Shown here: positions 7,237 to 47,394 of the stretch, in pieces
How the letters are laid out: every line of letters starts with the position of its first letter
How positions within the stretch are numbered: the stretch's first letter is position 1
Source of the DNA: an uncultured Sphingomonadaceae bacterium
Lineage (GTDB): Bacteria > Pseudomonadota > Alphaproteobacteria > Sphingomonadales > Sphingomonadaceae
Reading direction: 5' to 3'
DNA: 64,000 bases
Assembly (NCBI GenBank): GCA_947497315.1
Contig: CANMFX010000002.1
Location: 620,001 to 684,000 of the forward strand
Made by a program: the position numbers and the translations under genes
The notes under the pieces: generated by a model
What the model was told of the DNA's origin: nothing
Seen by the model: only the letters and a program-made list of their open reading frames with translations
The model's database searches: none

Positions 7237-7673
7237 GCAAACATCTGAACTCCAAAACACGCATTTTAGGTATCTGCCAATTGCAAAACCGGTTGGCGCG
7301 GCAAATTTATTTGGGCGCGGAAAGGGATATTGCGAGGATGGAAATGTCTCACGAACATCTTCGGACAATGGCTGGTCAGATGTTGGAAAATCAAGAAGTC
7401 GTTCAGTCAGCATTGCTGGCTGCAAGGATGGAACTGGCTTATCGCCTTATCGCCCTGAACGGCCGACAGAAAGACAGAGTTACGCAGGACCGACAGGCTG
7501 CGGCAGCACTGCAATCAAAAGTCTTCTTCTCTGCCCGAAGAGAAGATCGAGCGGCAATGGATCTTAAACAGGCGCGAAAATCGAGCGTGCATCGCCAGCA
7601 ACAGAATCTGCCCTGTTCGGTCAGAAACCATCGGGCGGGGCGAGGTCAATGGCAGGAAGGAAGAACATCATGA
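7233..7673 (+). CDS. fliJ: Flagellar export chaperone FliJ-like
   Basis: 146 residues, strongly helical, rich in Gln, Arg and Ala with a heptad pattern, as expected for the coiled-coil FliJ that links FliI to the FlhA gate and escorts chaperones. No strict motif exists for this family. The call rests on size, coiled-coil character and its position between fliI and fliK, with 4-base ATGA overlaps at both ends. The C-terminal 30 residues are basic and probably disordered. Confidence 0.7.
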   Translation: MSKHLNSKTRILGICQLQNRLARQIYLGAERDIARMEMSHEHLRTMAGQMLENQEVVQSALLAARMELAYRLIALNGRQKDRVTQDRQAAAALQSKVFFSARREDRAAMDLKQARKSSVHRQQQNLPCSVRNHRAGRGQWQEGRTS

Positions 7674-8902: not shown

Positions 8903-8930
8903 ACCCAACCAACATTATCGGAGAAAATAA

Positions 8931-9515
8931 ATGGCTGATGCTGTGGAAGCCGAAATTGAAAATCCAAAAAACGGTCGCCGGACGGGAAAGACCATCATCC
9001 TGATTGTTGTCCTGCTAACTCTGGGCCTTGGCGGATTGGTTGCGGGTTATTTTGCCGCGAATGTAATAGCTGCTGACCCGGATTACCTGCGAAAGCAGAA
9101 TGAGCCCGAACTCGTTTTACGAGATGGTGGGGCGATGGCGACGGCACTGGCCAGGATCACCGGCGACCAACCAAAATCGAAGTTTCAGGAAAGCGCTTAC
9201 AAGGCGACCTACTATCCGATGAAGGAACCGTTCACGTCCAATCTGAAAAACAGCGCCAGTTTTGCGCAGCTCTCCATTTCGATCGCGACATATTATGATG
9301 AGCAAGTGCTCCATAATATGGAAGAGCATGAAACCGCTATTCGCTCTGCCATATTACTGACGCTCGCTGAGCAGGAAAATGCTGCATTGAATACGCCGCA
9401 GGGCAAACAGATGCTGCAGAAAATACTGACCCGGGCGATCAATAAAGTCCTTAAAGAAAAAACCGGTTTTGCCGGTGCGCACAATGTCTATTTCACCAGC
9501 TTTGTGGTGCAATAA
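8931..9515 (+). CDS. fliL: Flagellar basal body-associated protein FliL
   Basis: 194 residues: a short cytoplasmic tail, one membrane helix (about 22-45, IILIVVLLTLGLGGLVAGYF) and a periplasmic domain with a stomatin-like FliL fold ending VLKEKTGFAGAHNVYFTSFV. FliL surrounds the stator units and supports motor output. A Shine-Dalgarno GGAG lies 7 bases upstream. Its stop overlaps the fliM start by one base. The family is divergent but the architecture, C-terminal FTxFVVQ end and position agree. Confidence 0.9.
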   Translation: MADAVEAEIENPKNGRRTGKTIILIVVLLTLGLGGLVAGYFAANVIAADPDYLRKQNEPELVLRDGGAMATALARITGDQPKSKFQESAYKATYYPMKEPFTSNLKNSASFAQLSISIATYYDEQVLHNMEEHETAIRSAILLTLAEQENAALNTPQGKQMLQKILTRAINKVLKEKTGFAGAHNVYFTSFVVQ

Positions 9516-10402
9516 TGGCCAAAGTTACAAAACATGTTTTCGCCGAAAAATCTGCTCATCTGCAGACTGATACGGCGCCGTTGCAGCGGGTGTCAGATCG
9601 CTATGCTGCGGGTCTGGAAAATGCGATTGGGCAACTGGCCGGTCAAAGCTTTGTAGTCGCGTCTGAAAAAATTCGGTTCATGGATTTTGGCAAGTGGGCC
9701 AATTCGCTGGAGTCTTTTTCCAGCCTGTCGGTCTTTCGTATTTTACCGCTGCGAGGGTCGATAATATTGCGCTTGGACGAGGCCATGATCAACAGCCTGA
9801 TCAACGTCTATTTTGGCGGCGCATTTGGTCCTGCAGTCGTGCGCAATAAAGATGGTTTCCGGGATTCGGAATTGCAGCTGATCGAACGGCTTGGGCAATT
9901 GTTGACGGAGCTGATTTGCGACTATTTTTCTGACTATGGCTCGATGAAGCCTGCATTGCAGCGGCATGAAACGAGCGTGTCTTACATAACTGGCCATGAC
10001 CCGAAAGAGCAGGTGATGAGCCAGTCGTTCCGGATCACAGCGAGTGAAGATATGTCGTGGCCGGTTGAACTGCTTTATTCTGCAGATGCTGCAGAAAGTG
10101 TGATGGAATTTGTGCAAAATAAAAGCGCCGAGACGCCGGTCGCTTCCGACCCGGAATGGCAACAGCAATGGTTCAACAATCTGCAGCAAATCCATTTACC
10201 GCTGCGCACAATATTGGCGCAGCCGACAATGCGTTTGCCGGAGCTTTTTGAAATGAAACCCGGTGATATCATTCCGATCACGCCGGGGGTCAAGCCGCCC
10301 CTTTTCGTCGCCAATCACAAATTTGCCACCGGCACATTGGGGGAGAAAAACGGATGTGCTGCTTTCAAGATTGAACATATGGAACAGGGGGATGTGCGAT
10401 GA
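9515..10402 (+). CDS. fliM: Flagellar motor switch protein FliM (no CheY-binding tail)
   Basis: 295 residues, shorter than the usual 330 or so. The middle domain has RILPLRGSIILRLDEAMI and the FGG loop (NVYFGGAFG) that contacts FliG. The C-terminal SpoA domain (about 225-290) pairs with FliN. The expected N-terminal CheY-P-binding peptide of the type LSQxEIDALL is absent; the protein begins MAKVTKHVFAEKSAHLQTD. The start is fixed by a 1-base overlap with fliL, so the lack is not a start-site error. It may use another input for switching. Confidence 0.92.
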   Translation: MAKVTKHVFAEKSAHLQTDTAPLQRVSDRYAAGLENAIGQLAGQSFVVASEKIRFMDFGKWANSLESFSSLSVFRILPLRGSIILRLDEAMINSLINVYFGGAFGPAVVRNKDGFRDSELQLIERLGQLLTELICDYFSDYGSMKPALQRHETSVSYITGHDPKEQVMSQSFRITASEDMSWPVELLYSADAAESVMEFVQNKSAETPVASDPEWQQQWFNNLQQIHLPLRTILAQPTMRLPELFEMKPGDIIPITPGVKPPLFVANHKFATGTLGEKNGCAAFKIEHMEQGDVR

Positions 10403-10755
10403 GCAATCCAAAAGAAGCGCCGACCGCGAAAGAGATAAAAGACGCCAAAGAGGCAGCGGAAAACGTCGAGGAAAACACTGCAGAAAACAGCAATAATTTT
10501 CGCTTGCTGTCCGATGTTCCTGTGCGGTTGTCGGTTGAAGTCGGTTCGATATCGAAGCGGCTTTTAGAGATCATGGCGTTTCAGGAAGGGGAGGTTGTCG
10601 AGCTCGATCGGCAATCGGATGACCTGCTCGACATAAAGGTCAACGGTACTCTGGTTGCCAAGGGGGAAGTGGTAACAATTGATGGCCGCTATGGCGTGCG
10701 TATCGCGGAACTGGCAAATGATGGCGGCGGTTTTCCCGGTGTGGAAAGGCGCTGA
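10399..10755 (+). CDS. fliN: Flagellar motor switch protein FliN
   Basis: 118 residues. A charged, Lys/Glu-rich N-terminal tail (1-35) precedes the SpoA domain: LLSDVPVRLSVEVGS, then LDIKVNGTLVAKGEVV and DGRYGVRIAEL. These are the standard FliN/YscQ signatures. FliN forms the base of the C ring and the docking site for FliH. It overlaps fliM by 4 bases (ATGA), and fliO begins 2 bases after its stop. Confidence 0.95.
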   Translation: MSNPKEAPTAKEIKDAKEAAENVEENTAENSNNFRLLSDVPVRLSVEVGSISKRLLEIMAFQEGEVVELDRQSDDLLDIKVNGTLVAKGEVVTIDGRYGVRIAELANDGGGFPGVERR

Positions 10756-10757
10756 CG

Positions 10758-11015
10758 ATGGCCGTCTATATTATCAAGTTGCTGGTCCTGTTGCCGATCA
10801 TGGCTGGCCTGATATTCGCGGCTCTTTGGCTCTATCGTAGATATCAACCGGGTCTCATTAACGTGCAGCAAAAGCGCAGCATAAAAATCCTTGAAACGCT
10901 TCCGATAGGGAATTTTGCGAAGCTGGCCGTGGTCGAATTTGACGGGCAGAAAATTCTGTTGTCCGTTACCCGGGGCAGGGTGGAACGCATTGCAGCAAAA
11001 GGCGATACGCTGTGA
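10758..11015 (+). CDS. fliO: Flagellar biosynthesis protein FliO
   Basis: 85 residues: one N-terminal membrane helix (about 4-26) followed by a small cytoplasmic domain with [20 protein letters not shown] and [13 protein letters not shown], the usual FliO pattern. FliO assists assembly of the FliP ring of the export gate. It lies between fliN and fliP, overlapping fliP by 4 bases (GTGA). Confidence 0.9.
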
Positions 11016-11773
11016 TCCGGGCGCTGTTTCTTTGTTTCATTGTTGCAATGTCGAGCATGGTTTTTGCTGAAACCGCTTTTGCGCAGGACGGTGGTTCGGA
11101 GGCTCTGGGCAAGGCGCTTGATGATATCTCCGGTGATGGCCGGCCATTGACCCTGTCCCTGCAAATTTTGTTGCTGATGAGCCTGCTGACGGTGTTGCCG
11201 TCAGTGGTTTTGATGATGAGCAGCTTCACCCGGATCATCATTGTCCTGTCGATCCTGCGGCAGGCCCTTGGGTTGCAGCAGACACCGCCCAATCAGGTGC
11301 TCGTCGGGCTGGCCCTGTTCCTGTCGCTATTCGTGATGCGTCCGGTGATCGATACGATCAGCGTCGATGCCTATTCGCCTTATGGGGAAGGGGAGATACC
11401 GATTGAGGAAGCGATCAGCCGGTCCGGTGATGCCCTGCACGGTTTCATGATCAAACAGACACGGCAGTCGGATCTGAAACTGTTCATGGAACTCGCCGAT
11501 GCGCCGCCGGTTGCCGAGCCGGAGGATATTCCGTTTTCCATCCTGCTACCCGCTTTCGTCACCAGCGAATTGAAGACCGCTTTCCAGATTGGCTTTTTGA
11601 TCTTCCTGCCGTTTCTGATCATTGACCTGGTGGTTGCATCAACCCTGATGGCGCTGGGCATGATGATGCTGTCGCCGACGATCATCTCGATGCCGTTCAA
11701 GCTGCTGCTCTTTGTGCTGGTCGATGGCTGGGCGCTGACCATGGGTACGTTGGCCGGGTCATTTGCGATTTAA
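11012..11773 (+). CDS. fliP: Flagellar export gate protein FliP
   Basis: 253 residues beginning at a GTG that overlaps the fliO stop. A cleavable signal peptide (about 1-25, ending AETAFAQ) is followed by the FliP core: [35 protein letters not shown], and near the C-terminus [11 protein letters not shown]. Four membrane segments are visible. FliP with FliQ and FliR forms the helical export gate in the MS ring. The sequence is highly conserved, so the call is secure. Confidence 0.97.
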
Positions 11774-11787
11774 CGGAGGCAGGGAAT

Positions 11788-12063
11788 ATGACAGACAGCA
11801 GTGATTTCTTCATCGGCATGGCGCAGCAAACGCTCTGGATAACTGCGCTTGCCGCAGCACCGATATTGGTGCCTGCGTTGCTCGGCGGCTTGCTGCTCGG
11901 CATGATCCAGGCAGCGACATCGATCAACGAAGCGACATTGAGTTTTGTTCCCAAGCTGTTGGTCGTGGCGATCATGCTGAGCATTTTCGGCGGTTCAATA
12001 ATGTATCTCATCGTCGATTTTACCCGGGATGTTTATGACCGGATACCGGCTTTGCTGGTGTGA
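11788..12063 (+). CDS. fliQ: Flagellar export gate protein FliQ
   Basis: 91 residues with two membrane helices and the FliQ signature GMIQAATSINEATLSFVPK near residues 45-65. It packs around the FliP-FliR pore. A GGAGG at about 11775 lies upstream of the ATG. It is followed by fliR after 9 bases. Confidence 0.96.
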   Translation: MTDSSDFFIGMAQQTLWITALAAAPILVPALLGGLLLGMIQAATSINEATLSFVPKLLVVAIMLSIFGGSIMYLIVDFTRDVYDRIPALLV

Positions 12064-12072
12064 TTACCGACA

Positions 12073-12855
12073 ATGATTGCGCCCGGATTTTCTGGACTGG
12101 AGGAACAGCTGTGGTTGTGGCTCTTCGCCATGATCAGGCCCGGTGCCGCCTTTTTTGCAGCGCCCGTCACCGGCGCAAGAGTGGTGCCGGTCCAGTTGCG
12201 GCTGATCGTCTCACTGGCGGTAGGCATCGCGGCGATTGGCGGGTCCGGTATCGCATTGCCCAACGACGGCCTAATCAGCATTTCCGGTTTCGCCCTGATC
12301 GCTGGCGAGGTGATCATTGGTCTTGCCATCGGCTTCACGATCCAGATCGGATATGCCGCAGCTTTTGTGGCTGGCGAGACGATCAGCAACGCCATGGGCC
12401 TCGGCTTCGCATCCATGGCTGATCCGCAAACCGGGCAATCCACGCCGGTTATCGGGCAGTTTCTTTCGATCATCGCGACGCTTATCTTTCTGGCCATGGA
12501 CGGCCATCTCATCCTGGCCTCGATCATCGTGCGCAGCTATGAATTCTTGCCGCCCGGAAGCGCCTTGCTATCAGCGGATGCTGCTTTCCGGCTTGCCCAT
12601 TTTGGCGGCTCGCTGTTCGTCGCGGGATTGGCGGTCGCGTTACCGGTTGGTTCCGCCCTGCTGCTGGTGCAGATCATCATGGGCCTGTTGGCAAAGTCAG
12701 CGCCGTCGATGAACCTGTTCGCGGTCGGCTTGCCGGCAACACTGATATTGGGACTGGTGATGCTGGCGATGGCGGCTCCGCTGATGATCGATGGAATCAC
12801 ACAATCATTAACCCAGTCGCTGGGCTATAGCGAGACTGTGGCAAAGGGCAGCTGA
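12073..12855 (+). CDS. fliR: Flagellar export gate protein FliR
   Basis: 260 residues, six or more membrane segments, with typical FliR features: FAMIRPGAAFFAAPV near the N-terminus, GFTIQIGYAAAFVAGE and QTGQSTPVIGQF in the middle. It completes the FliPQR pore. Its TGA overlaps the flhB ATG by one base (TGATG), suggesting coupled translation of FliR and FlhB, which form a complex. Confidence 0.96.
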   Translation: MIAPGFSGLEEQLWLWLFAMIRPGAAFFAAPVTGARVVPVQLRLIVSLAVGIAAIGGSGIALPNDGLISISGFALIAGEVIIGLAIGFTIQIGYAAAFVAGETISNAMGLGFASMADPQTGQSTPVIGQFLSIIATLIFLAMDGHLILASIIVRSYEFLPPGSALLSADAAFRLAHFGGSLFVAGLAVALPVGSALLLVQIIMGLLAKSAPSMNLFAVGLPATLILGLVMLAMAAPLMIDGITQSLTQSLGYSETVAKGS

Positions 12856-13997
12856 TGTCGGATGGACCACCAGGTGGCGGAGAGAAAACCGAAGCGCCAA
12901 CTCCAAAGCGGTTGCGGGACAGCACCAAAAAGGGCGATGTTCTGCAATCCAAGGAATTGGGCGGGGCAATGGTCGTGGTGGCCGGTGCAACAGGGTTTGT
13001 CATGCTCGGCGGTTTTCTGCTCGACGCACTCACTCAGATGGTAACCAGCGGCCTGACCATAGAACCCGGCGATATCGAGTATTTCAATCCCGGCGAGCGA
13101 ACCTATCGTCATCTCGGCAAGATTATTCTGCCATTTTTTGGCCTGTTCGGCATGACCATGGCGGCGGCAATAGCAACACCATTGGTGCTCGGATCGATGG
13201 GTTTTCGCTGGACCGCGATGAAACCGAAAGGAGAAAAGCTCAATCCGCTTAACGGCCTGAAACGCATGTTTGGAACACGCGGCTTGATCGAGCTGGTCAA
13301 GGCGCTCGCAAAAGTGATCCTGCTCGGCCTTATCGGGTTGTGTCTGGTCTATGCAAACCTGCCGAACATGTTCGCACTGGGGGGTCAGGACATGCGTTCT
13401 GCCATCGGTGAATTTGGTGATCTTTTCATAATGATCCTCTTGGTCATGGCGGCAGGTTTTTTGATGATTGCCGGCATTGATGTTCCCGCACAAATGTTTC
13501 AACGCAGCAAGCGCCTGCGCATGACCAGACAAGAAGTCAAAGACGAACAAAAGGACATTGAAGGACCACCGGAACTGAAAGCAGCCCTGCGCAAAAAACA
13601 ACAGGAGACGCTTTCCCGTTCGGCGCGCAAGGCGGTCGAGGAGGCTACCGTGGTGCTCAACAACCCGACGCATTTTTCGGTGGTGTTGCGCTATCGTCCC
13701 GGAATGGATGCGGTCCCCGTCGTACTGGCACGGGGCAGGGGGGCGACCGCCTTGGCGATACGCGAACTGGCCGAAGAAAAAGCGGTACCGATGCTGCGAT
13801 ATCCTATGCTTACGCGGGCGATATATTTCACCACACCGGTAGGCGGTGTTATCGATGAGCGACTCTATGTGGCGGTGGCGACCGTATTGGCTTTTCTATT
13901 CCGCCTTGATGCAAAAATTGCTGAGGGCCTGGAACGGCCACATATTGATCTGCCGGAAGAACTGCGTTTTGATAGCGACGGAAATTGTGAGAGCTAG
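12855..13997 (+). CDS. flhB: Flagellar export specificity switch protein FlhB
   Basis: 380 residues. The N-terminus carries the family start GEKTEAPTPKRLRDS, then four membrane helices (to about residue 210). The cytoplasmic autoprotease domain follows, with the cleavage site NPTH at residues 270-273. Self-cleavage between Asn and Pro allows FlhB to switch export from rod/hook to filament substrates, together with FliK. It closes the tightly packed run; fliD begins 36 bases later. Confidence 0.97.
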   Translation: MSDGPPGGGEKTEAPTPKRLRDSTKKGDVLQSKELGGAMVVVAGATGFVMLGGFLLDALTQMVTSGLTIEPGDIEYFNPGERTYRHLGKIILPFFGLFGMTMAAAIATPLVLGSMGFRWTAMKPKGEKLNPLNGLKRMFGTRGLIELVKALAKVILLGLIGLCLVYANLPNMFALGGQDMRSAIGEFGDLFIMILLVMAAGFLMIAGIDVPAQMFQRSKRLRMTRQEVKDEQKDIEGPPELKAALRKKQQETLSRSARKAVEEATVVLNNPTHFSVVLRYRPGMDAVPVVLARGRGATALAIRELAEEKAVPMLRYPMLTRAIYFTTPVGGVIDERLYVAVATVLAFLFRLDAKIAEGLERPHIDLPEELRFDSDGNCES

Positions 13998-17332: not shown

Positions 17333-17409
17333 TGGCGCGCCCGACAGGAGTCGAACCTGTGGCCTCAAGATTAGAAGTCTCGCGCTCTATCCAGCTGAGC
17401 TACGGGCGC
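17333..17409 (-). tRNA. tRNA-Arg (anticodon UCU)
   Basis: A 77-base cloverleaf on the minus strand. Acceptor arm GCGCCCG pairs with CGGGCGC, the discriminator is G and CCA is encoded. The D arm is TAGCTCAGCTGGATAGAGC. The anticodon loop is CTTCTAA with anticodon TCT, and the T arm is ACAGG-TTCGACT-CCTGT. It reads AGA codons. No integrase or attachment repeat is seen beside it. Confidence 0.97.
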
Positions 17410-17685
17410 GCACCTTAGAAATCCCTGTTTCCGAAGAAAAGCTGCTTATTCGCAGTTTTCTGCGGCTCAGCGCGTAAACAGGATCGGGTTGAATGTCAAC
17501 CACCGGATCACCTTGTCGCGATGGCCGAAGTGACTGCAAAACGTGATTTGCCAGCGACAAGACGTACCACTGAACTAACAGTATTTCATTGCTGACATAA
17601 AAGGCCAATACTTATACATTCGTTGACAAATATTATCTTCTGCCCCTTTATTACGCCATCTGACCGGATTCGATTAGGGGCTGGA

Positions 17686-18264
17686 TTGACATCAAGTAAG
17701 GACAATGAATCCCAGAAATCTGCAGGCATTACGTCCGCTGCAGATGATCTTGACGGACAAGCGCTGCATGACAGTCTTGAAGAGCTTTTTTCACAGTTTC
17801 GTGTTCCGCTGGAAAGATATTTCCGGAAAAGAGTCTACAATCAGAATGAAGTGGAAGATCTTGTACAAGACGTCTTTTACCGTCTGACGTCGCGGGCAGA
17901 TCCAACCAGACTGGAGCGGCCAGAAGCCTTTATATTCCAGATCGCAGCCAACTTGTTACGTGACAAGGCGCGGCGCGAGGCAACCAAAAGATCATTTACC
18001 AAGCATTTATCCGACCAAAATGAAAATGCTTTTGAGGAACTTTCTCCCGAGCGCGTCTTGTTAGGTAAAGAGAAAGTAGTAGCGCTGAAAAACGCATTGA
18101 ACGAATTGCCGGAACGCACACGGAACGTTTTCCTGTTGCACAGGTTTGAAGAGTTTAAATATCGCGAGATCGCGCAGCAATTAGGTATATCGATGAGTTC
18201 AGTTGAAAAGCACATGATGGATGCCATCAAGCATCTTGCACATCGTTTGGGGCCACCGGAATGA
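17686..18264 (+). CDS. FecI-like ECF sigma factor
   Basis: About 192 residues. No in-frame ATG exists upstream; TTG at 17686 is preferred because AGGGG lies 7 bases before it, but the frame is open to another TTG at 17623. Sigma region 2 is visible (YFRKRVYNQNEVEDLVQDVF; RPEAFIFQIAANLLRDKARR) and region 4 (LNELPERTRNVFLLHRFEEF, then YREIAQQLGISMSSVEKHM). It lacks other domains, so it fits the iron-starvation FecI group. The anti-sigma gene overlaps it by 4 bases and its likely target receptor follows. Confidence 0.88.
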   Translation: MTSSKDNESQKSAGITSAADDLDGQALHDSLEELFSQFRVPLERYFRKRVYNQNEVEDLVQDVFYRLTSRADPTRLERPEAFIFQIAANLLRDKARREATKRSFTKHLSDQNENAFEELSPERVLLGKEKVVALKNALNELPERTRNVFLLHRFEEFKYREIAQQLGISMSSVEKHMMDAIKHLAHRLGPPE

Positions 18265-19331
18265 TGGATCCAAATAACATGAATGCACTGGATGCGGATA
18301 ACAGCGTCGAGGAACAAGCTGCCTACTGGTTTGCAAGGCTGCGTGCAGATAATGCCGGCAAAGGGGACCAACGGCGTTTCAAGGCGTGGCTCGAAAAATC
18401 GCCTGAACATGCCGAGGCTTATGCGTTGCAGGAAGAGGTCTGGACGGCAATGCAGGATAGTGCTGTCGATGACGAGATTATGGCGATGCGCCAAAATGCC
18501 CTCGCTGTGTCTGCAGGATCGAATAACAATAGCTGGATGAAATATGGCGCGATTGCGGCTTCTCTCCTGGTCGTAGTTGTTTCGATGGTGATGCTGAACC
18601 CCTTTGGGAATATGGGCAGTTCTAATGATGTGGATCCGTCCCAACAACTGGCCCAGGGTGGATCACAGTCTTCACCCATTTACAGGACGGCTATCGGTCA
18701 GAGATCGACGGTCAACCTGCCCGACGGTTCCGTTGTGGAGCTCAATACTGATAGTCTGGTCCAGATTAATTTTAGCGAGGACAGGCGTGACCTGATCCTG
18801 CTGCGCGGCGAAGCGTTGTTCGAAGTCGCCAAGGATGCCGATCGTCCTTTTGTCGTGGAAGCTGATGGCAAACTGGTTACAGCTATTGGTACGACTTTCT
18901 CGGTTCGGCGCAGCGATGACGAGGTGCGTGTGACCCTTATCGAAGGAATCGTGACGGTCGATCAGGATGACAGTGATACTGCCAATCCGGATGCGGTGAG
19001 CAAGAAACAGCTGAAACCGGGAGAGCAACTCATTGCGCAGGGTGGTCAGCCTTTCAAGGTCAATGTGATCGATACGGCCGTGGTGACAAGCTGGAAAGAT
19101 GGCCGCCTGATTTTTGACAATGAGCCGCTGGGCATGATTGTTCAGGAGGTGAACAGATATTCGTCACGCAAACTGGTGTTCGGCGATCCAACGCTTTCCG
19201 ACATGCGGGTTAGCGGTATTTTCCAGGTCGGTTCTGTTGACAGCTTTGCTGCAGCTCTCGAAGCATCATTCCCCGTCAGAAACAGCGCACCATCCGGTGA
19301 AGGCGACATCGTTCTCGACTGGAAAGAATGA
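18261..19331 (+). CDS. FecR-type anti-sigma / signal transducer
   Basis: 356 residues. A cytoplasmic N-terminal domain (1-85, AAYWFARLRADNAGKGDQR) binds the sigma factor. One membrane helix lies at about 93-113. The periplasmic FecR domain has TAIGQRSTVNLPDGSVVELN and FSVRRSDDEVRVTLIEGIV. The last 60 residues (LGMIVQEVNRYSSRKLVF) form the domain that meets the STN signalling domain of the receptor. It should sense receptor occupancy and release or activate the upstream sigma factor. The ATG overlaps the sigma gene by 4 bases. Confidence 0.92.
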   Translation: MMDPNNMNALDADNSVEEQAAYWFARLRADNAGKGDQRRFKAWLEKSPEHAEAYALQEEVWTAMQDSAVDDEIMAMRQNALAVSAGSNNNSWMKYGAIAASLLVVVVSMVMLNPFGNMGSSNDVDPSQQLAQGGSQSSPIYRTAIGQRSTVNLPDGSVVELNTDSLVQINFSEDRRDLILLRGEALFEVAKDADRPFVVEADGKLVTAIGTTFSVRRSDDEVRVTLIEGIVTVDQDDSDTANPDAVSKKQLKPGEQLIAQGGQPFKVNVIDTAVVTSWKDGRLIFDNEPLGMIVQEVNRYSSRKLVFGDPTLSDMRVSGIFQVGSVDSFAAALEASFPVRNSAPSGEGDIVLDWKE

Positions 19332-19508
19332 GCTTTAGCATCTGAAAAACATAGTCTTTTTCAAGAATAATCTACCCCAGAATCACTGATATTCCACCCC
19401 TATCTGAAAAAGATTTTGAGGGATGGTGAACCTCGCGCGTCTTACTTTTTGTGAGGCTAGTCAGCGGATGACTGACAGCCAGCAGGGAAAGAAAGACAGG
19501 GGATCAAT

Positions 19509-22500
19509 ATGCAATCTCGTTCGTTTAAGCTGTTGCAAGCAGCAATGCTAACCGGTGCCGCCAATATCGCAATCGTCGGATCGGCCCATGCCCAAGAACA
19601 GGCGATATCTTTCAATATGCCGGACCAGGCTTTGTCCTCTGCCCTGAAAAGCTATGCGCTCAAGACTGGAAAGAATCTTGTTTATCCGCCGGAGATAGTT
19701 GCGAATAAGCGGGCAAATGCCGTGTCCGGTCGTTTGACCCCGATACAGGCGCTGCGTCTGTTGCTACGCGATACAGCCATTTCCTTTCGTGAAATCGAAC
19801 CAAATGTACTGGCTCTCCGAATTGCAAATACATCACGGTTGTTGCGAAACAGAGCAGCACCATCAGCAACTGCGGCCTCCGCGGCGGCTGCCGTCGTTCA
19901 AAACACTTCTGCTGGAACGGCTATTCAAGACGATCGCTCTCCGGAAGGTCGTAGCACCGGTATAGTTTCTGGTACGGTCGTGAATACAAACACCGGTAGC
20001 GCTTTGCGGGGCGCATTGGTACGTATAGATGGAACCAACCTGGAAGCGGTTACCGATGATCGCGGCCAATATTATTTCCCCGCTGTCCCGCGCGGGCGGC
20101 AAGTTGTTCGGGTGGAATATCTGGGTGAGGAGGTAAAGACCGTCACCGTATCCGTATCGCCCGGATCACGTCAGCAAGCCAACGTACAGGTCGGTGAAGC
20201 CAACCAGGATATCGTTGTTTTCGGTTACCGAAGTTCTATTCAACAGGCGCTAAACAAGCAGAAAAATGCGGACAATAATGCTACTATCGTTTCGTCTGAT
20301 TTGCTGGGTGGTTTTCCGGCCGAAACGGTGTCGGAGGCGCTGCGACGTGTTCCTGGTGTAGCTTTTGGCAGAGACAATGCGACGGGAGAGGGCTCTCGTA
20401 TAACTGTGCGTGGTTTTAGTTCCGAAGCGATCAATGTACAGCTAAACGGACTGGAACTGCAGGGTACAAATTTTGAACGAACTGTTGATCTCAGTGGTTT
20501 TCTAGCTGACAATATTTCCGAAATCAGGATTCAGAAATCACTTCTCCCGAGTCACGAGTCGAACGGTTCTGGTGGCTTGGTAGAAATCGAGACCAAGTCA
20601 GGGCTCGACTATGGTGATTTTGCTCTAAACCTCAGCGCCGAAGGCGAGAGTGGTTTTGACCGGGCTTTTGGTGAGGAATATCAAATCGGTGGCACCATCG
20701 CCAAAAAAATCACCAATAATTTTGGCGTGGCTGCGACTCTGCAATATCGCAAAACAGACCGGACCAATTACGATATTGGTATCTTGAGTAGTACACCGCA
20801 AGTATTGCCAGCTGGATTTACCAGCGGCGCTCTTGTGCCGCCACCAGCGCAATTTCCGTTTGATCCCGAGTTTGAAAGTCGCTTACTAACGGGGGCCAAC
20901 TATTTTCAGCGCGATCGTGACGAAGAGAATCTGTTGGCATCTGTCAATCTAGCGTGGGACATTGGTTCGCATACGAAGTTGCGTCTTGATCTTCAGCGCA
21001 ACCAGCGTGACGTTGTTACCGAAAATTCCCGAACAGCCATCAGCTATCGCACCAGGGGCGTGGATATGCCTATTCCTGAGCTGGGAGGAGAAGTTCGTCG
21101 GCGGACCACATTGTCAGGTCTGGCGCCGGTGACTGCGTTGAATGTCGTCGATCAGCAGATACGAAGTAGTTCTATCAGCCTGCGCGGTGATACAGTTCTC
21201 GACCGCTGGACGTTCAACTACAAAGCAGGTTATTCGAAAGCCAAAGCGCAATCCAACAATGTCAATTTGACGCTGATCGCTAATGTACTTAACAATTTGA
21301 CGGGCATTATTGATCCCGCGACGGCGGTGATCAATCCTGACGATGATGCCGCCATGACTCCTCGGATCGTAGACGGCGGGTACGTGATTGCATCCAACGG
21401 TATCCCAATCCCTTCCTTGACGGAGCAGGGATTTGCTATCGTCAATGATCCAAGTCAGTATAATTTGACCAATGCTTCCCGGACGATAACCGACAGCCCT
21501 ACCGAAGCTTATTTTTTGGAAGGCAGTGCAAGGTATGAGTTCGGTGGAGGCTTCCTAAATTATCTTGAAGCTGGCGGTAAATATGACCGGAGCAAACGGC
21601 GGTCTGCGGATGACCGTTTTGCCACCGCGACCAGGGGATTTTTGAAACCCAGCGTCAACTACTCCAGAATATTTGGCCGGAACACGACGGCGGATGATAT
21701 AGCTCCCGGGCTTCTGGATTTCCCTACCTTGGCTGATATCGGAAGTGATGGATTTGTATTTCCAGCGATTAAGCCACGTTCGATTGATACCATTTTCGAT
21801 GCACTTGCTGGTTTAACGGCAGATGACCCTGCGACGGCGTTCAACGAAGAAAGATATCGCTTTACTGATGCAACCACACTTGATCCGATAGCGGACGTCG
21901 GCGGACTGTTGCCAGCGACTACTAAGGAAAAAAGGTTGGCCGCTTATCTGGAGGCTAAAGTTGTTTTCGGCGATTTTGATGCGATTGGCGGTGTGCGGTT
22001 TGAGAGCGTAGATCGCAATGGAACAGTATTAAGTGCGCCCTCTGTGCGACTTAACCAGCCGGGAGTGCAAAGGGAACCACGGGCCACGTTTGTCAGTGCT
22101 GGATTGGTCAATTTTGTGGACGTATCAGGAACGACCTCGACCTGGACACCGAGCATATTGGTAAACTATCGTCCGATGGACAATCTGGTCGCCCGGTTCG
22201 GTTATTTCAGGTCGACGGTTAACCCCGATTTCAGGCTTATTCGAAGCACGAACAGAATATCGATAGACTTACGACCGAATTTTGCTTCCGTAAATATCCG
22301 CGAAGCAAATCCTGATCTGAAACCGTCTACAACCGACAATTTTGACCTTGATGTAGCTTATTATTTCCAGGATACACCAGGCCTCATCAGGGCAGGGCTT
22401 TTTTACAAGAAAATCTCCAACAACTTTACCAATGTATTTTTCCAACTGGCACCAAATGAAACTGTGCGCCAGAGGGTGCTGGATACTTTCGGGCAACTTG

Positions 22501-23120
22501 CAATAGATCGACCTGACCTCGTTGATTTTGCTCCGGATACAGCATTTACTTTAAATCGACCGGAAAATGGTGAAGGCGGAAAAATCTATGGCTTTGAGTT
22601 GGAGTTGATCCGGCAATTGGATTTTCTTCCAGGTTTTCTAAAGGATTTTGGTGTTCTGGGTAATTTAACTTACACTAAAGGTGATTTCCCAACATTGGTT
22701 ACGGCATTCACGCCTCCTCCTCGTCAGGTGACGCAGTTGTCGCTGGATCGCCCGTTGGCAGATCAAGCAGCTTGGGTTTATAACGCGTCTATAAACTATG
22801 CCAAAGGCGGGTTTGATGGCCGCCTGATTTACACACGGCAAAGCCAGACTGTTACCTCTTACACCGCCAGGGATATTAATAGTATTTTGCCGGCGTTCTC
22901 GACGCTTGATCTAAGACTGTCCTACACATTTGATAAATTCGGTAGCAATTGGACGGTTTTCGTGGAGGGCGATGATCTGCTTAGAGGATCAAAAGAGGCG
23001 GATATCCGAAACGCTTCGGGCCCTACTCCTGGCCGATCAGATGCAGACTTCTTCTTTCCCAATACCTATCAATTTAATGGTGGTCGCAGCGTGACGATGG
23101 GCGTCCGAGCTCGGTTCTAG
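19509..23120 (+). CDS. TonB-dependent receptor with STN and carboxypeptidase-regulatory domains
   Basis: 1203 residues in the outer membrane. A signal peptide (1-29, ending SAHAQ) is followed by the STN signalling domain (about 31-100), which talks to FecR. Next is a carboxypeptidase-regulatory-like beta domain (about 155-225, SALRGALVRIDGTNLEAVTD), a TonB box-like QDIVVFGYR, a plug (SEALRRVPGVAFGRDNATGE) and a very long 22-strand barrel ending GGRSVTMGVRARF. Receptors of this size usually take up peptides, glycans or protein-bound ligands rather than simple siderophores. Regulated by the FecI/FecR pair just upstream; the M16 protease lies downstream. Confidence 0.93.
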   Translation: MQSRSFKLLQAAMLTGAANIAIVGSAHAQEQAISFNMPDQALSSALKSYALKTGKNLVYPPEIVANKRANAVSGRLTPIQALRLLLRDTAISFREIEPNVLALRIANTSRLLRNRAAPSATAASAAAAVVQNTSAGTAIQDDRSPEGRSTGIVSGTVVNTNTGSALRGALVRIDGTNLEAVTDDRGQYYFPAVPRGRQVVRVEYLGEEVKTVTVSVSPGSRQQANVQVGEANQDIVVFGYRSSIQQALNKQKNADNNATIVSSDLLGGFPAETVSEALRRVPGVAFGRDNATGEGSRITVRGFSSEAINVQLNGLELQGTNFERTVDLSGFLADNISEIRIQKSLLPSHESNGSGGLVEIETKSGLDYGDFALNLSAEGESGFDRAFGEEYQIGGTIAKKITNNFGVAATLQYRKTDRTNYDIGILSSTPQVLPAGFTSGALVPPPAQFPFDPEFESRLLTGANYFQRDRDEENLLASVNLAWDIGSHTKLRLDLQRNQRDVVTENSRTAISYRTRGVDMPIPELGGEVRRRTTLSGLAPVTALNVVDQQIRSSSISLRGDTVLDRWTFNYKAGYSKAKAQSNNVNLTLIANVLNNLTGIIDPATAVINPDDDAAMTPRIVDGGYVIASNGIPIPSLTEQGFAIVNDPSQYNLTNASRTITDSPTEAYFLEGSARYEFGGGFLNYLEAGGKYDRSKRRSADDRFATATRGFLKPSVNYSRIFGRNTTADDIAPGLLDFPTLADIGSDGFVFPAIKPRSIDTIFDALAGLTADDPATAFNEERYRFTDATTLDPIADVGGLLPATTKEKRLAAYLEAKVVFGDFDAIGGVRFESVDRNGTVLSAPSVRLNQPGVQREPRATFVSAGLVNFVDVSGTTSTWTPSILVNYRPMDNLVARFGYFRSTVNPDFRLIRSTNRISIDLRPNFASVNIREANPDLKPSTTDNFDLDVAYYFQDTPGLIRAGLFYKKISNNFTNVFFQLAPNETVRQRVLDTFGQLAIDRPDLVDFAPDTAFTLNRPENGEGGKIYGFELELIRQLDFLPGFLKDFGVLGNLTYTKGDFPTLVTAFTPPPRQVTQLSLDRPLADQAAWVYNASINYAKGGFDGRLIYTRQSQTVTSYTARDINSILPAFSTLDLRLSYTFDKFGSNWTVFVEGDDLLRGSKEADIRNASGPTPGRSDADFFFPNTYQFNGGRSVTMGVRARF

Positions 23121-23135
23121 CTAAAATTACAGGCA

Positions 23136-23193
23136 TCTGTTTCCTGGGGGCGTTCCCAACCCCTTATACCCCGAATGAACCTCAGGAAACAGA
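23136..23193 (+). terminator. Inverted repeat after the TonB receptor gene
   Basis: An 11-bp perfect inverted repeat (TCTGTTTCCTG at 23136-23146, CAGGAAACAGA at 23183-23193) starts 16 bases after the receptor stop. The inner flanks can extend the stem by about three pairs. No T tract follows, so it could be an mRNA-stabilising or attenuating hairpin that lowers expression of the downstream protease rather than a full terminator. Confidence 0.5.
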
Positions 23194-23360
23194 ACCGTGA
23201 ATTACTTGTCTACGTCATCGGACCGGTGAAAGTGATGATGCCAAAAATGTAGCCTGAATATTGGTCTATTTGTTGAGGGTTTCGCATTCTTGTGCGTCTT
23301 ATATAGTAATAGCCTTAGAAAAAATCAGAATGCTTCCCCTGATTCCCCGGAGAATTAATA

Positions 23361-26264
23361 ATGCGACAGAAATCCCGTTTGCGATTTGCCCCGGCATTGT
23401 CTGCGACCCTTGCCTTGTTGGCAGTGAGCCCCGCAATGGCCAAAGGTGACGAAAGCAATGGCGGGTTTGCCCATGATGCTAGCGACCTGAAGCCGGATTC
23501 GCGGGTGGTTTACGGCACGCTTGCCAATGGCTTGCGCTATGCAGTTATGAAAAACAGTACGCCGAGCGGCGTCGCAGCGGTCCGGATGCGGATTGCCACC
23601 GGCTCGCTCAACGAGACGGAAGAGCAGAGAGGCATTGCTCATTTTCTTGAACATATGGCCTTTAACGGTTCGAAGAACGTTGCTGAAGGTGAGATGATCA
23701 AGCGCCTGGAGCGATATGGTCTGGCGTTTGGCGCAGATACCAATGCCAGTACTGGTTTCAGTCAGACCACCTACAAACTCAATCTGCCGACTGTAGGCGA
23801 CGAAATTTTGAACGAAGCCTTTTTTCTGATGCGTGAAACAGCGGAAAACCTGACTCTCGATGAAGAAGCCATCGAACGGGAACGCGGCGTGATTGCTTCG
23901 GAAAAACGCAGCCGGGATTCTATCACTTTCCGGGCTTTGATCGCCAATATGGGGTTCTTGACGGAAGGCAGTGGTTTGACTGATCGTTTGCCAATCGGTG
24001 TGGATGAAACCATCGCAACGATGCCGCGATCAGAATTTGTCAAATATTATCGCGGTTATTATCGCCCGGAAAATACTTTTATCGCGTTTATCGGTGACGT
24101 CGAAACTGATCTGGCAATCGAAAAGATCAAAACCTATTTCAGCGATTGGCGGCCGAAGACCAAAGCGCTCCCCCAGGCGAAGCTTCCACCTGCTGATATT
24201 GTCACGGGGAAAATTGGTTATCACCACCATGATGAAATCCTGACTTTTGTGTCCTTGGGATCACTGCAACCTTTCGAAAAATGGCCGGACAACAAGGCGA
24301 GACGGAAAGAGAGATTTTTGAGGGCCCTGGGCGCACAGATTGTCAATCGCCGGCTCGACCGCATGATTGATTCTGGTGAGGCGAATTTCCTGAACGGGTC
24401 CATCAGCCGCTATGCGCCGGAAGATACTGTTGACGCGTGGATCATTCGGCTACGCAGCGGGCCGGACAATTGGAAAGAAGCATTGGCGGCAGGAGATCAG
24501 GAAATCCGGAGGGCGCTGGCCTACGGTTTTTCGCAAGCCGAACTGGATGAGGTTATTGCAAGGCAACGCAAAGCGCAGCAGGTTGCTGTAGATCGCAAGG
24601 ATACGCGGAAAACCTATGCGAGACTTGAATATAACTATGCCAAGGAGCTGGTGGACAGTTTCGCCAACGAACGTGTGTTCACTGCACCGGAAGACAGCCT
24701 TGCGCGTTTTGACGAGTTTGTCGCGGAAATAACGCTGGAGGACGTGGAACGCGTGTTTCGTGAACGTTGGGCAGGCTTTGAAGAGCCTGTAGTTTATCTC
24801 GCCACCAGCCAAAAAATTGATAATCCTGAAAAGGAGATAAGGTCGGCATTTCTGGCATCCCGTCAAATTGCTGTTTCAGCACCGGAAAGCCAGCAGGCCA
24901 CAAAATTTGCCTATACCGAATTCGGAGAACCCGGCCGCGTTGAAAAAGAATCCTATCTGGCAGATGCCGATGCCTATACCATCACCTTTGCCAATAACGT
25001 GCGGCTGAACTTCAAGCAGACGGATTTCGATGCTGATACGATTGGTATCCGCGTGAGAGTGGGTAGTGGTTTCCTTTCTATGCCAGAGAAAAGCGAAGAG
25101 TTGCGCAGACTGGCGGAAAATCTCCTCAGCCGCAGCGGTGTGGAGGGGCATAGCGCAGATGATCTGCAAACACTGTTTGCAGGCAAGAATGTCGGAGCCC
25201 GTGTTCGCCTGCGTCCTGATAACGATGCTTTGGAAGTTATCGGTCGCACGGACCCGAAAGACTTTGCTGATCAGATGAACTTGATGACAGCACATATCAC
25301 GGCGCCTGCTTATCGTGAGCAGACGGCCAAACGCTATCATAAGAAAATGAGGGCTTGGTACCCAACCCACAAAGCTTCACCGATGACGGTCGCGGAAAAG
25401 GAATTGCCTCGGATGATCCGCTCGGGTGATCCGCGTTATGGTTTTTCTGATCTGGAGGCCTTTTTGTCTCCCGGAATCCAGGATGTCCGGGACTGGATTG
25501 ACCCACAGCTTCAAAACGGTTTGATAGAAATTACTATCGTGGGTGACATCGAGAGGGCCATTGCCATCGCTGAGGTTGCGCGGACATTTGGAGCTTTGCC
25601 AGAACGTGCTGACAACAAAGGTGCGTTTCCGGAGATGCGTAATCTGGAATTTCCGTCACAGCCTGCCGAACCATTTACATATTATCATCAGGGTAATTCT
25701 GATCAGGCCATGGTGCGGGTATATTGGCCCGCGCCGGATGCTTCCGACCCCAAAGATCCTCTGCGTATGCAGGTCTTGCGCAGCATATTCCGCAACCGCT
25801 TATCGAACGTTCTTCGGGAAGATATGGGACTGACCTATTCGCCAGGCGCCGGGATGTTCGTGAGCAATCTATATGATGATTACGGTTATATGTTCGCCAG
25901 CGTAACAGCGGCACCTGAAAAGGCCGGTGAAGTTCGTCAGGCCATATTGCAGGTCGGAAAACAACTGGCAGCGGAGTCCATTGATGAAGATGTTTTTCAA
26001 CGGGCGTTGAAGCCGATCATCGATGATATTGACAGCTCACTAGAGAATAATGGTTATTGGATGAGCGTGCTCCGAGATGCGCAAACGAGTGGATATGGAA
26101 TGGTTCGGCATCGCATGCGTGAGAGCGTTTTGCGTGAAATGACGGTTAAGGACATTAGCGTTATGGCGAAGCGGATCTTCGGGTCCAACGCCGCAGTGGC
26201 TGCATATATTCTTCCTGCGCCGGAAGAAAATGATGAGGCGGAAGTGGCGCTGATATCGGATTGA
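23361..26264 (+). CDS. Periplasmic M16 (insulinase/pitrilysin) zinc protease
   Basis: 967 residues. A signal peptide (1-27, ending SPAMA) sends it to the periplasm. The inverted zinc motif HFLEH is at residues 94-98 and the third ligand lies in LDEEAIERERGVIASEKRSR about 75 residues on. A second, inactive M16 half occupies the C-terminus, giving the four-domain clamshell of the PqqL/FusC group. Shine-Dalgarno GGAG precedes the ATG. Placed after a FecIR-controlled TonB receptor, it probably digests the imported polypeptide or a carrier. That link is inferred from gene order. Confidence 0.9.
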   Translation: MRQKSRLRFAPALSATLALLAVSPAMAKGDESNGGFAHDASDLKPDSRVVYGTLANGLRYAVMKNSTPSGVAAVRMRIATGSLNETEEQRGIAHFLEHMAFNGSKNVAEGEMIKRLERYGLAFGADTNASTGFSQTTYKLNLPTVGDEILNEAFFLMRETAENLTLDEEAIERERGVIASEKRSRDSITFRALIANMGFLTEGSGLTDRLPIGVDETIATMPRSEFVKYYRGYYRPENTFIAFIGDVETDLAIEKIKTYFSDWRPKTKALPQAKLPPADIVTGKIGYHHHDEILTFVSLGSLQPFEKWPDNKARRKERFLRALGAQIVNRRLDRMIDSGEANFLNGSISRYAPEDTVDAWIIRLRSGPDNWKEALAAGDQEIRRALAYGFSQAELDEVIARQRKAQQVAVDRKDTRKTYARLEYNYAKELVDSFANERVFTAPEDSLARFDEFVAEITLEDVERVFRERWAGFEEPVVYLATSQKIDNPEKEIRSAFLASRQIAVSAPESQQATKFAYTEFGEPGRVEKESYLADADAYTITFANNVRLNFKQTDFDADTIGIRVRVGSGFLSMPEKSEELRRLAENLLSRSGVEGHSADDLQTLFAGKNVGARVRLRPDNDALEVIGRTDPKDFADQMNLMTAHITAPAYREQTAKRYHKKMRAWYPTHKASPMTVAEKELPRMIRSGDPRYGFSDLEAFLSPGIQDVRDWIDPQLQNGLIEITIVGDIERAIAIAEVARTFGALPERADNKGAFPEMRNLEFPSQPAEPFTYYHQGNSDQAMVRVYWPAPDASDPKDPLRMQVLRSIFRNRLSNVLREDMGLTYSPGAGMFVSNLYDDYGYMFASVTAAPEKAGEVRQAILQVGKQLAAESIDEDVFQRALKPIIDDIDSSLENNGYWMSVLRDAQTSGYGMVRHRMRESVLREMTVKDISVMAKRIFGSNAAVAAYILPAPEENDEAEVALISD

Positions 26265-29690: not shown

Positions 29691-30290
29691 TCAAGTGAAC
29701 TCCGATGGCAGCGATACACAAGCAAACCTGATAATTGACCTACCGCCGGTGGAAGCTTGATTGCAGCTGTATTTTTCAAAGAGAGTTGTTATCTCATTTT
29801 CAAGTTTTTCACGTTGTCGGCTGTCAAGTCTGGCGATGAGCCAGCGTTCATGCTGCTTGTATTCGCCGGTGGTGTCTTCGTCATATATATTCTCGACCCG
29901 CCATCGAGCTCCATCATAACGAAAAAGTTCACCAATCGCACCATCGCCAAATTCTATACTGGTTTCCATTATCTTGGTGAGTTCACTACTGACTGTCGAC
30001 GACCGGATATCTGACGGAACGAAATACTCTGTCGCACTTGCGCGATAGAGCTTTTGCGCCCTTCCAGCCCGTTTTCGAGAACCCGTCTCGGTTAGAAGGC
30101 CAGCTTTCACCAGACTTCGGACATGGTGCCAAACCGGCCCGATATCCTTGCCGAGAGCATCGGCAATTTCCTTCATCGTGCGTGCATTTTTTGTTGAAGT
30201 CTCCAGAATATCGAGGGTCCTTCGCAGCATCAGCAATTTGATGGCCTGCGGTGAAAGATGCGGCATTCTACTCAGTAATTCGTGTTCCAT
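29691..30290 (-). CDS. ArsR-like winged-helix transcriptional regulator
   Basis: 199 residues. The N-terminal 90 residues form a winged helix: LRRTLDILETSTKNARTMKE, then IADALGKDIGPVWHHVRSLV (recognition helix) and KAGLLTETGSRKRAGRAQKL (wing). The C-terminal half is a helical domain of unknown ligand, with no Cys metal site of the ArsR kind. It is divergent from the S41 peptidase gene with 55 bases between the two starts, so it probably controls that gene and itself. Confidence 0.75.
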   Translation of the reverse strand: MEHELLSRMPHLSPQAIKLLMLRRTLDILETSTKNARTMKEIADALGKDIGPVWHHVRSLVKAGLLTETGSRKRAGRAQKLYRASATEYFVPSDIRSSTVSSELTKIMETSIEFGDGAIGELFRYDGARWRVENIYDEDTTGEYKQHERWLIARLDSRQREKLENEITTLFEKYSCNQASTGGRSIIRFACVSLPSEFT

Positions 30291-30345
30291 ATGAAGTAGC
30301 TATCAGGAACATTGATTCAGGTCACCTATTGGAGAGATTCTTGCC

Positions 30346-31377
30346 ATGATCAATTCCAGATTGTTTGCCGCTATTTTGACACTTGGCATTCATGCATGTG
30401 TGCTACCGGCCGCGCCGCACCAAAATTCCAACGTTACAGCGGCCGATGGCGATACCGCAACTTCATCAGAGCCAGATCAGTCTATTACAAAAGATACACG
30501 GGCCGATGCAATCTTGCGGCTGCTGGGAGAACACTATGTTTATCCCGGCAATGTAAAGAGAGTTGAGCAAGCAATCCGCGCACGCTCAGCCGACTTCATC
30601 CAGCTTGACGATCGTGCATATGCTGACGCGATGCGATCCGTTTTGTCGGATTTGGTCCAAGATCGCCACTTATTGCTCGATCATAGCGCCCGCCCGTTGG
30701 CAGAAGATGATAAGCATGATATTTCAGAGCCCGATCCGGCAGCCAAGGCGCGAATGGAGGAATTTGCCCGACGGGTAAACTATGGCTTCACTCAGGTTAA
30801 AGTCATGAAGGGTAATATTGGGTATCTTCAAATAGATGGCTTCATGCCGGTTGAGGTGGCCGGCGGGACCCTTGCAGCAGCGATAAAAGAACTGCATGGC
30901 ACCGGTGCCCTTGTCATTGACCTGCGAGAATCTGATAAGGGCGGTGAACCAGAAATGGTTGCCTTGATCACTGCCTACTTGATATCTGACACCGAGCGAC
31001 AGCTGACCAGAACTGTCTATCGAAACGGAAAAGAGGAGGAAAGCCGTATTCCGTTGCTGGATGCCGCGCAACGCTTTCCTGAAGATACACCAATCTATGT
31101 GCTGACAAGCCGCAAGACATTCTCGGCAGGAGAGGAACTGGCCTACAATCTCAAAGCGCTGGGACGTGCACGCGTGATTGGTGAACCAACCGGAGGTGGG
31201 GCCAATCCCGGAGAAGTGCATCGCATAAACGCCCACCTCAGACTTTTTGTGCCGGAAGGGGAAGTGTTCAGCTCGATCACCGGTGAAAATTGGAATTGGA
31301 CCGGAGTGATCCCGCACGAGGCAGTCGCGCCAGAGGATGCTCTTGATCGGGCGATAACAGAGATCGAAGCCAAATGA
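30346..31377 (+). CDS. S41 family peptidase (tail-specific protease/IRBP-like)
   Basis: 343 residues with an N-terminal export signal (about 1-25; HAC at 16-18 could be a weak lipobox). The S41 core is visible: an N-terminal helical cap with YPGNVKRVEQAIRAR, then GNIGYLQIDGFMPVEV, a strand with LVIDLRESDKGGEPEMVALI, and the active-site segment TSRKTFSAGEELAYNLKALG. GEPTGGGANPGEVHRI closes the fold. No PDZ domain is seen, which fits the short IRBP-like branch. GGAGAG lies upstream of the ATG. The substrate is unknown; the divergent winged-helix regulator is its likely controller. Confidence 0.85.
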   Translation: MINSRLFAAILTLGIHACVLPAAPHQNSNVTAADGDTATSSEPDQSITKDTRADAILRLLGEHYVYPGNVKRVEQAIRARSADFIQLDDRAYADAMRSVLSDLVQDRHLLLDHSARPLAEDDKHDISEPDPAAKARMEEFARRVNYGFTQVKVMKGNIGYLQIDGFMPVEVAGGTLAAAIKELHGTGALVIDLRESDKGGEPEMVALITAYLISDTERQLTRTVYRNGKEEESRIPLLDAAQRFPEDTPIYVLTSRKTFSAGEELAYNLKALGRARVIGEPTGGGANPGEVHRINAHLRLFVPEGEVFSSITGENWNWTGVIPHEAVAPEDALDRAITEIEAK

Positions 31378-47167: not shown

Positions 47168-47394
47168 GATGCAAATTCCTTAATTGGGGTGAGCGCCATT
47201 ACGGCGGCTTGGCGGGCGGGTCGGCCCGATAATATTTGTGGGATATCTGGAGTGCCTTGAGGGCACGGGCGAAACGGACGGGACACCGGGGAGCACCCCG
47301 CCCATTCCCGCGGGTGCCTACTCATGCCCCCTCGACATCGAGCCTCGAAGGCTCGAATCTCGGTCGTGCGACAGCGCGTAAAATAGTGGCTCAT
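47164..47394 (-). CDS. Small leader ORF coupled to the trimeric adhesin gene
   Basis: A 76-codon frame that starts at ATG 47394 with a near-ideal ribosome site (GGGGAGG, 6 bases before the ATG) and ends in TGA that overlaps the adhesin ATG as ATGA. The product is Arg/Pro/Cys-rich (MSHYFTRCRTTEIRAFEARC at the start) and matches no family I know. The DNA under it has several hairpins (GAGCC-TTCGA-GGCTC, GTGCC-CTCAA-GGCAC). It may be a regulatory leader peptide that couples or gates adhesin translation, rather than a functional protein. The frame stays open upstream to 47631, without a comparable ribosome site. Confidence 0.45.
   Translation of the reverse strand: MSHYFTRCRTTEIRAFEARCRGGMSRHPREWAGCSPVSRPFRPCPQGTPDIPQILSGRPARQAAVMALTPIKEFAS

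Follow-up and report, generated by a model that had tools for sequence, protein, structure and literature searches.

Import systems that join a TonB-dependent receptor to a protease include both receptor-M16 pairs and clusters with other proteases (PMC6793856, in the part available). In the Fus system of Pectobacterium (FusA/FusC) and in YddB/PqqL of E. coli, the receptor stands beside a periplasmic, single-chain, two-half M16 protease with an HxxEH motif; both are sporadically distributed, and other proteases replace FusC in some clusters (available portions of PMC6793856 and PMC6071955). Cell-surface signalling systems of the FecIRA and HasISR type combine a sigma factor, an anti-sigma factor and a receptor with an STN signalling domain (PMC9249621, likewise in part). 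Features of both occur in a four-gene module of an uncultured Sphingomonadaceae bacterium, analyzed here in a window of 64,000 nucleotides (the whole stretch examined; contig CANMFX010000002.1, positions 620,001 to 684,000). The module comprises, in this order and all on the + strand, fecI, fecR, the gene for an STN receptor of 1203 residues and that for an M16 protease of 967 residues. It is probably a mobile, ligand-induced and self-limiting receptor-protease cassette that would import a peptide or small protein for digestion in the periplasm. The gene series named in the original prediction is borne out by the open reading frames (ORFs) and Pfam domains at the same coordinates:

17686..18264, +: fecI, extracytoplasmic function (ECF) sigma factor, 192 residues, TTG start; Pfam sigma70_r2/r4, TIGR02937 above cut-off
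18261..19331, +: fecR, anti-sigma factor/sensor, 356 residues, one hydrophobic span (hydropathy peak from residue 97); Pfam FecR and DUF4880
19509..23120, +: TonB-dependent receptor, 1203 residues; Pfam STN, CarboxypepD_reg, Plug and barrel; TIGR01782
19674..19817, +: receptor STN signalling domain, residues 56-103; Pfam PF07660; the receptor profile matches FpvA/FecA signalling domains
19965..20204, +: receptor CarboxypepD_reg-like domain, residues 153-232; Pfam PF13715
20259..20540, +: receptor plug domain, residues 251-344; Pfam PF07715
20619..23117, +: receptor barrel, residues 371-1203, exchanged among relatives (identity comparison with L045-L047)
23361..26264, +: M16 zinc protease, 967 residues; Pfam PF00675/PF05193 (Peptidase_M16 and two M16_C stretches); PqqL chain 6ofs, E = 8.7e-51
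23640..23654, +: inverted zinc motif HxxEH (HFLEH), protease residues 94-98; present in 24/24 module-clade M16 proteins scanned

The components of FecIRA-type cell-surface signalling are thus all present: an ECF sigma factor, a FecR with a membrane span and an STN-bearing receptor. fecI and fecR overlap by 4 bp, the receptor scores 345.4 bits against NCBIfam TIGR01782 (cut-off 310), and the N terminus of the protease resembles a signal peptide when read by eye. Unlike FecIRA and HasISR, the conserved unit lacks genes for siderophore synthesis or an ABC transporter but includes one for a protease, and its candidate fecR promoter lies inside fecI. Compared with Fus and YddB/PqqL, the receptor belongs to another subfamily, with STN and CarboxypepD_reg domains; the module has its own FecI/FecR pair and cognate-like promoters on both receptor and protease; the protease appears to come from another M16 lineage; and the barrels are exchanged. 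On the best reading, the module would resemble Fus and YddB/PqqL in its working. New relative to the known systems are the putative sigma regulon that includes its own inhibitor, the receptor subfamily without significant similarity to FusA or YddB, the separate recruitment of the protease, and the barrel alleles. The terms sigma factor, FecR, Sphingo and Alphaproteobacteria are absent from the main text of PMC6793856, and FecI, FecR, peptidase, protease and M16 are absent from PMC7142613, on TonB transporters in sphingomonads. A full-text search found no paper on the sigma/receptor/M16 combination, but its coverage of subscription journals is limited, and absence is unproven.

Promoter-like sites before receptor, protease and fecR

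Alignment of the gaps 5' of receptor and protease in 11 close modules (window, L045-L051, L053, L056 and L070) yielded a common motif, TTGAGG-N16-CGTCTTA, which is found in the module at the following positions:

19416..19444, +: exact motif, starting 93 bp 5' of the receptor gene
23273..23301, +: exact motif, starting 88 bp 5' of the M16 gene
18032..18060, +: candidate sigma-dependent promoter within fecI, one mismatch to the motif, 229 bp before fecR

The two exact copies are the only ones in the whole 3.4-Mb genome. Among 60 genomes, the exact motif occurs in 12, namely, all 11 that bear the module (20 sites, every one at the module) and G037 (two sites), the only one of 49 module-free genomes to contain it; the reversed control gave four matches over the 60 genomes. 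A chance origin of the motif was rejected by these exact scans of the own genome and of the 60 genomes. With one mismatch allowed, the own genome contains four sites, the same number as the reversed control, and only exact sites and conserved positions therefore carry weight.

The shorter form TTGAGG-N16-CGTCT stands 5' of the receptor in 11/11 close modules and 5' of the protease in 10/11, with one mismatch in L056. Other modules with this form 5' of the receptor are L057, L076, L077 and L118 and, with one mismatch, L078. The inverted M16 gene of L076 and L118 has a separate copy 92 bp before an ATG; in L057 and L077-L080, where the M16 gene follows the receptor by only 8-101 bp, no separate M16 copy was found within two mismatches. 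The motif is absent from L079 and L080, where FecI reaches only 24-29% identity, and from two receptor-less M16 orphans (L052 and L055). Its presence across modules with a like sigma factor and its absence from L079 and L080, with their unlike one, indicate that the motif goes with the sigma type, as expected for a cognate promoter that FecI would recognize. Receptor and protease are very likely co-regulated. An exact hexamer pair shared between fecI and the DNA 5' of the receptor was not found in six loci of other types (L054, L079, L080 and L124-L126). In L079 and L080, a common element seen by eye 5' of the receptor (GGCGGAT ... GCATC) may be the promoter of their own sigma factor.

The position and strand of the site within fecI suit transcription of fecR. 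Across 16 divergent fecI genes, six of 114 scored columns use a single codon, and five of these six are codons 116-124, inside the site; GAG (codon 117) and CGC (codon 123) are kept in 16/16. In L072 and L119-L121, isoleucine at residue 124 turns CGTC into CATC, and CATC also stands before their M16 genes. Transcription of the anti-sigma gene hasS by HasI provides a precedent for the role proposed here for FecI on fecR, and is the contrast case to iron-uptake sigma factors, which activate neither their own gene nor that of their anti-sigma factor (PMC9249621, in the part available). Many ECF sigma factors autoregulate, although none was found in the FecIRA-like operon of the study that reports this (PMC12772443, available portion). 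The type of feedback is thus already known, and a description of such a site within fecI was not found in the literature searched, mostly as titles. The site would allow a straightforward test of whether a sigma factor controls its own inhibitor.

By analogy with FecA/FecR/FecI, ligand on the receptor would act through the STN domain on FecR and free FecI. FecI would then transcribe receptor and protease genes from the two nearly identical sites, whose conservation is observed. From the third site, which lies within fecI, it would drive fecR as well and thereby make the circuit self-limiting. As in known families, TonB would power passage of the ligand through the receptor across the outer membrane. 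The M16 protease, which homology predicts to be a hollow clamshell, would then digest it in the periplasm.

Occurrence, mobility and protease lineage

Among 397 genomes of the family, the receptor (E<=1e-120) was found in 10 and the M16 clade in 12 (at least 56% identity, below which the next match falls to 38%). The 12 include every one of the 10 receptor genomes, in which both genes lie in one cluster; this 10/10 co-occurrence indicates a real unit, paired beyond chance. The four genes are neighbours in each of the 10, in the same order in nine and with the M16 gene reversed in one (L076). Conservation of the M16 gene beside the receptor, on which the original prediction depended, therefore holds throughout the receptor genomes of the family. 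The coupled sigma/anti-sigma/receptor/M16 unit that it had proposed is conserved across genera, and the putative coupling is visible as conserved promoter-like sites. Among 31 congeners, the receptor is present in nine and an M16 of at least 73% identity in 11. In L052 and L055, the M16 gene lies behind polA without a receptor; both proteins nest within the module clade of the protease tree, and the receptor has therefore probably been lost there.

Order-wide, 15/396 genomes contain the receptor at E<=1e-100. Ten of these pair it with the same M16 clade, three with other M16-like proteins (L124-L126) and one, G855, with a Met-zincin-like protein (L123; the G855 receptor consists of two partial matches on two contigs); no recognized protease was found near the receptor in the remaining genome, G047. 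In addition, a second receptor of G031 (L054, G031 C1:1650000-1668000, 5371-13372) belongs to the same family but comes with a dissimilar FecI/FecR pair; where the M16 protease would stand, this locus has a Met-zincin (DUF4953/DUF5117, HEIGHTLGLTH). Zinc proteases of other kinds thus adjoin distant relatives of the receptor. A protease, be it of the same or of an unlike kind, regularly accompanies the receptor, which makes a peptide or small protein the most probable ligand.

The receptor could instead import a small ligand, such as a siderophore or oligosaccharide, while the M16 protease merely clears misfolded receptor or other periplasmic proteins. FecIR-type receptors of known ligand mostly serve iron carriers (PMC9249621, available part), the receptor family TIGR01782 is a general one, and matches of the receptor profile in the PDB reach only the signalling, plug and carboxypeptidase-regulatory-like domains, all of which would suit this alternative. 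It is nevertheless considered unlikely, as neither a protease that shares the cognate-like promoter of one receptor nor the other zinc proteases beside distant members of the receptor family are easily squared with general quality control. The sequence-level evidence for receptor and protease in one regulon allows the question of which TonB receptors import peptides or proteins to be put to the test in a sphingomonad from the environment.

In the window and in L045-L047, the module is inserted between a tRNA gene and the gene for a queuosine-precursor transporter (QueT):

17333..17409, -: tRNA-Arg (TCT), left boundary of the inserted module (ARAGORN); also in L045-L047

The transporter locus was inspected in 10 other genomes of the genus (L128-L137). 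The module is absent from L131, L132, L135 and L137, where a Nudix gene, tRNA-Arg(TCT) and the QueT gene are neighbours; in L136, the tRNA adjoins the transporter gene without the Nudix gene. Different genes fill the interval in L128 and L134, and no such tRNA was found within the stretch examined in L129, L130 and L133. The junction looks like an insertion site of the genus, empty in some genomes and occupied by other genes in others. The remaining close modules have different neighbour genes, and the four-gene unit is kept across neighbourhoods and genera. Empty sites in relatives and varying neighbours elsewhere indicate that the module is an accessory cassette that moves.

The best solved matches of the M16 protease are a chain annotated as peptidase, M16 family (9ldy), and PqqL, with FusC weaker. 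Non-module M16 proteins behave similarly: that of L085 scores equally high against PqqL in the PDB, and that of L084 scores lower than the module protease against PqqL and higher against FusC. In a quick LG+G4 tree of 55 rows, the 24 module proteins form one clade (SH-aLRT 100) within a 41-member set (support 98) that holds 17 other M16 proteins of the same family and order, and PqqL and FusC are placed outside this set. A mixture-model tree of 39 rows, from which 16 near-copies, long branches and outgroup rows had been dropped, also recovered the module clade (support 100); forcing it together with PqqL and FusC was weakly rejected (approximately unbiased [AU] test, p = 0.041), with long branches in play. 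An RE..G..Y motif at residue 819, near the C terminus, is lacking in the orphans L052 and L055.

The original prediction placed the protease with the PqqL/FusC kind, which is correct for the two-half architecture but not supported for the clade, as the module protease stands beside M16 proteins of its own family and order. To this extent, grouping with M16 proteins of unrelated context, which had been named as evidence against that prediction, is partly what the phylogeny gives. An orthologous Fus or YddB-PqqL system brought under FecIR control would account for a receptor beside a single-chain, two-half M16 protease and for PqqL among the best solved matches. The tree placement, together with a receptor without significant similarity to FusA or YddB, disfavours orthology and makes this explanation very improbable. 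The M16 proteins of L125 and L126 group with another M16 type from the genome of the window (L083), and that of L124 falls with PqqL and FusC on a very long branch. As all three thus group apart from the module clade, the tree indicates that this receptor family gained a protease partner on more than one occasion.

Receptor barrel alleles

The fecI, fecR and M16 products of the window are 93-99% identical to those of L045-L047. The receptor is 99% identical to that of L046, 77% to that of L047 and 65% to that of L045, and the corresponding values for the barrel (residues 371-1203) are 100, 69 and 54%. Divergence starts near the plug and then fills the barrel. Synonymous distances (pS) between the window and L047 are 0.13 for fecI, 0.17 for fecR, 0.24 for M16 and 0.14 for receptor residues 1-230 but 0.83 for residues 371-1203; between L046 and L045, they are 0.02 for fecI, 0.14 for M16 and 0.80 for the barrel. 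Saturation of synonymous sites precluded the use of dN/dS. Recombination between conserved flanks would be the simplest cause of the exchange. Across 22 receptors, the plug region (residues 250-370) is conserved, with a mean pairwise identity of 0.87.

By identity, about five classes can be told apart among the 11 close barrels: window/L046, L047/L049, L045/L048/L070/L050, L051/L056 and L053. Barrel identity is 91% between L047 and L049 and 84% between L045 and L048. FpvA-type pyoverdine receptors of Pseudomonas likewise show allele diversity, being signalling receptors with alleles for ligand variants; the constant partner in the module is a protease rather than a siderophore pathway. Since the barrel is exchanged as an allele while sensor, sigma factor and protease stay, the version of the ligand that is caught probably differs from strain to strain, with the same protease processing them all. 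Barrel alleles with a constant protease would provide a natural experiment for ligand discovery.

Barrel exchange could also reflect escape from phages or bacteriocins, with the protease acting to destroy peptide toxins or bacteriocins admitted by the receptor. Such a role in defence or competition would suit the restriction of exchange to the barrel, the poor conservation (mean pairwise identity, 0.38) of a stretch of about 100 residues that lies between predicted strands 9 and 10, and the accessory distribution (9/31 congeners). It is distinctly unlikely, however, as a purely defensive protease would need no co-induction of its gate and variation extends beyond loops: in the first half of the barrel, the strands (0.45-0.60) vary as much as most loops do in a model of low confidence. 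This AlphaFold model of the receptor, from 10 close homologues, has a mean pLDDT of 53.4, and only its barrel strand positions were used, as a rough guide. Foldseek with the same model retrieved generic TonB receptors with TM-scores of about 0.2 to the query, on which no claim is based. The corresponding M16 model (10 close homologues) has a mean pLDDT of 47.8.

Several observations weigh against reading the module as a ligand-induced import cassette with exchangeable barrels. In L072 and L119-L121, a receptor promoter was not found within two mismatches. Within the fecI site, TTT (codon 116) is invariant only where phenylalanine is kept (10/16) and GTC (codon 124) only where valine is kept (12/16); the spacer codon CTT (119, nine sequences) is likewise invariant, and a serine codon of the site varies. 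The receptor has no significant similarity to the FusA of L127 (BLASTP E 1.1) or to YddB (E 0.016 over 159 columns), and among 29 matches (E<=1) of a 10-receptor profile to PDB chains, none is named as FusA, ferredoxin receptor or YddB. M16 genes also occur beside another type of receptor: among kin M16 genes outside the module, whose neighbours were Pfam-scanned in part at 10/17 loci (eight loci with ten large ORFs between them, plus L060 and L064 with one ORF apiece), that of L093 is divergent beside the gene for a 792-residue TonB receptor of another type (8278-11400 and 11436-13814). A TonB receptor also lies about 5 kb from the M16 gene of L086, and for these two reasons the kin proteases are not called receptor-less. 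The barrels common to L047 and L049 represent long-kept allele classes rather than recent exchange, judging by within-class synonymous distances that about equal or exceed those of M16 (barrel versus M16, 0.54 versus 0.61 for L047/L049 and 0.82 versus 0.63 for L045/L048), and datable swaps appear confined to the four nearest genomes (window and L045-L047). Finally, the AlphaFold models of receptor and protease are too poor to reveal a pore or cavity.

A wider generalization is possible but somewhat doubtful: that these loci are convergent "catch, import and digest" cassettes, in which one receptor family under a self-limiting sigma switch, with the anti-sigma promoter concealed within the sigma gene, has repeatedly recruited unlike zinc proteases and whole barrels are exchanged between strains while digestion stays constant. 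If true, the proteases recruited include more than one M16 lineage as well as Met-zincins, and the ligand changes via barrel alleles.

Minor features of the locus and window

The genome of the window (3.42 Mb, nine contigs) gives 35 plug-domain matches and five FecR matches and encodes three long M16 proteins. By its receptor, the closest named record is Sphingorhabdus sp. EL138 (L065; 99% identity). Upstream of fecI lies one further conserved element:

17623..17628, +: TTGACA 5' of fecI, kept in 11/11 close modules aligned

The fecI start at 17686 (TTG), given in the original prediction, is preferred to the ORF start at 17623 supplied by the gene-finding tool because the ORFs of five relatives (L048, L049, L051, L053 and L070) begin at the residue matching 17686 (192 residues) and because conservation of the TTGACA at 17623 marks it as DNA upstream of the gene, where it is a possible housekeeping -35 element. 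Other relatives have longer fecI open frames of 213, 238, 199 and 216 residues.

Outside the module, the M16 protease and TonB receptor of L093 are possibly another receptor-protease pair. In the window, an S41 peptidase gene and a divergent ORF of 199 residues, regulator-like by eye, occupy 29691-31377, where the module motif was not found within two mismatches. The G+C content at 44000-48000 is 0.59-0.62, compared with about 0.52 around it.

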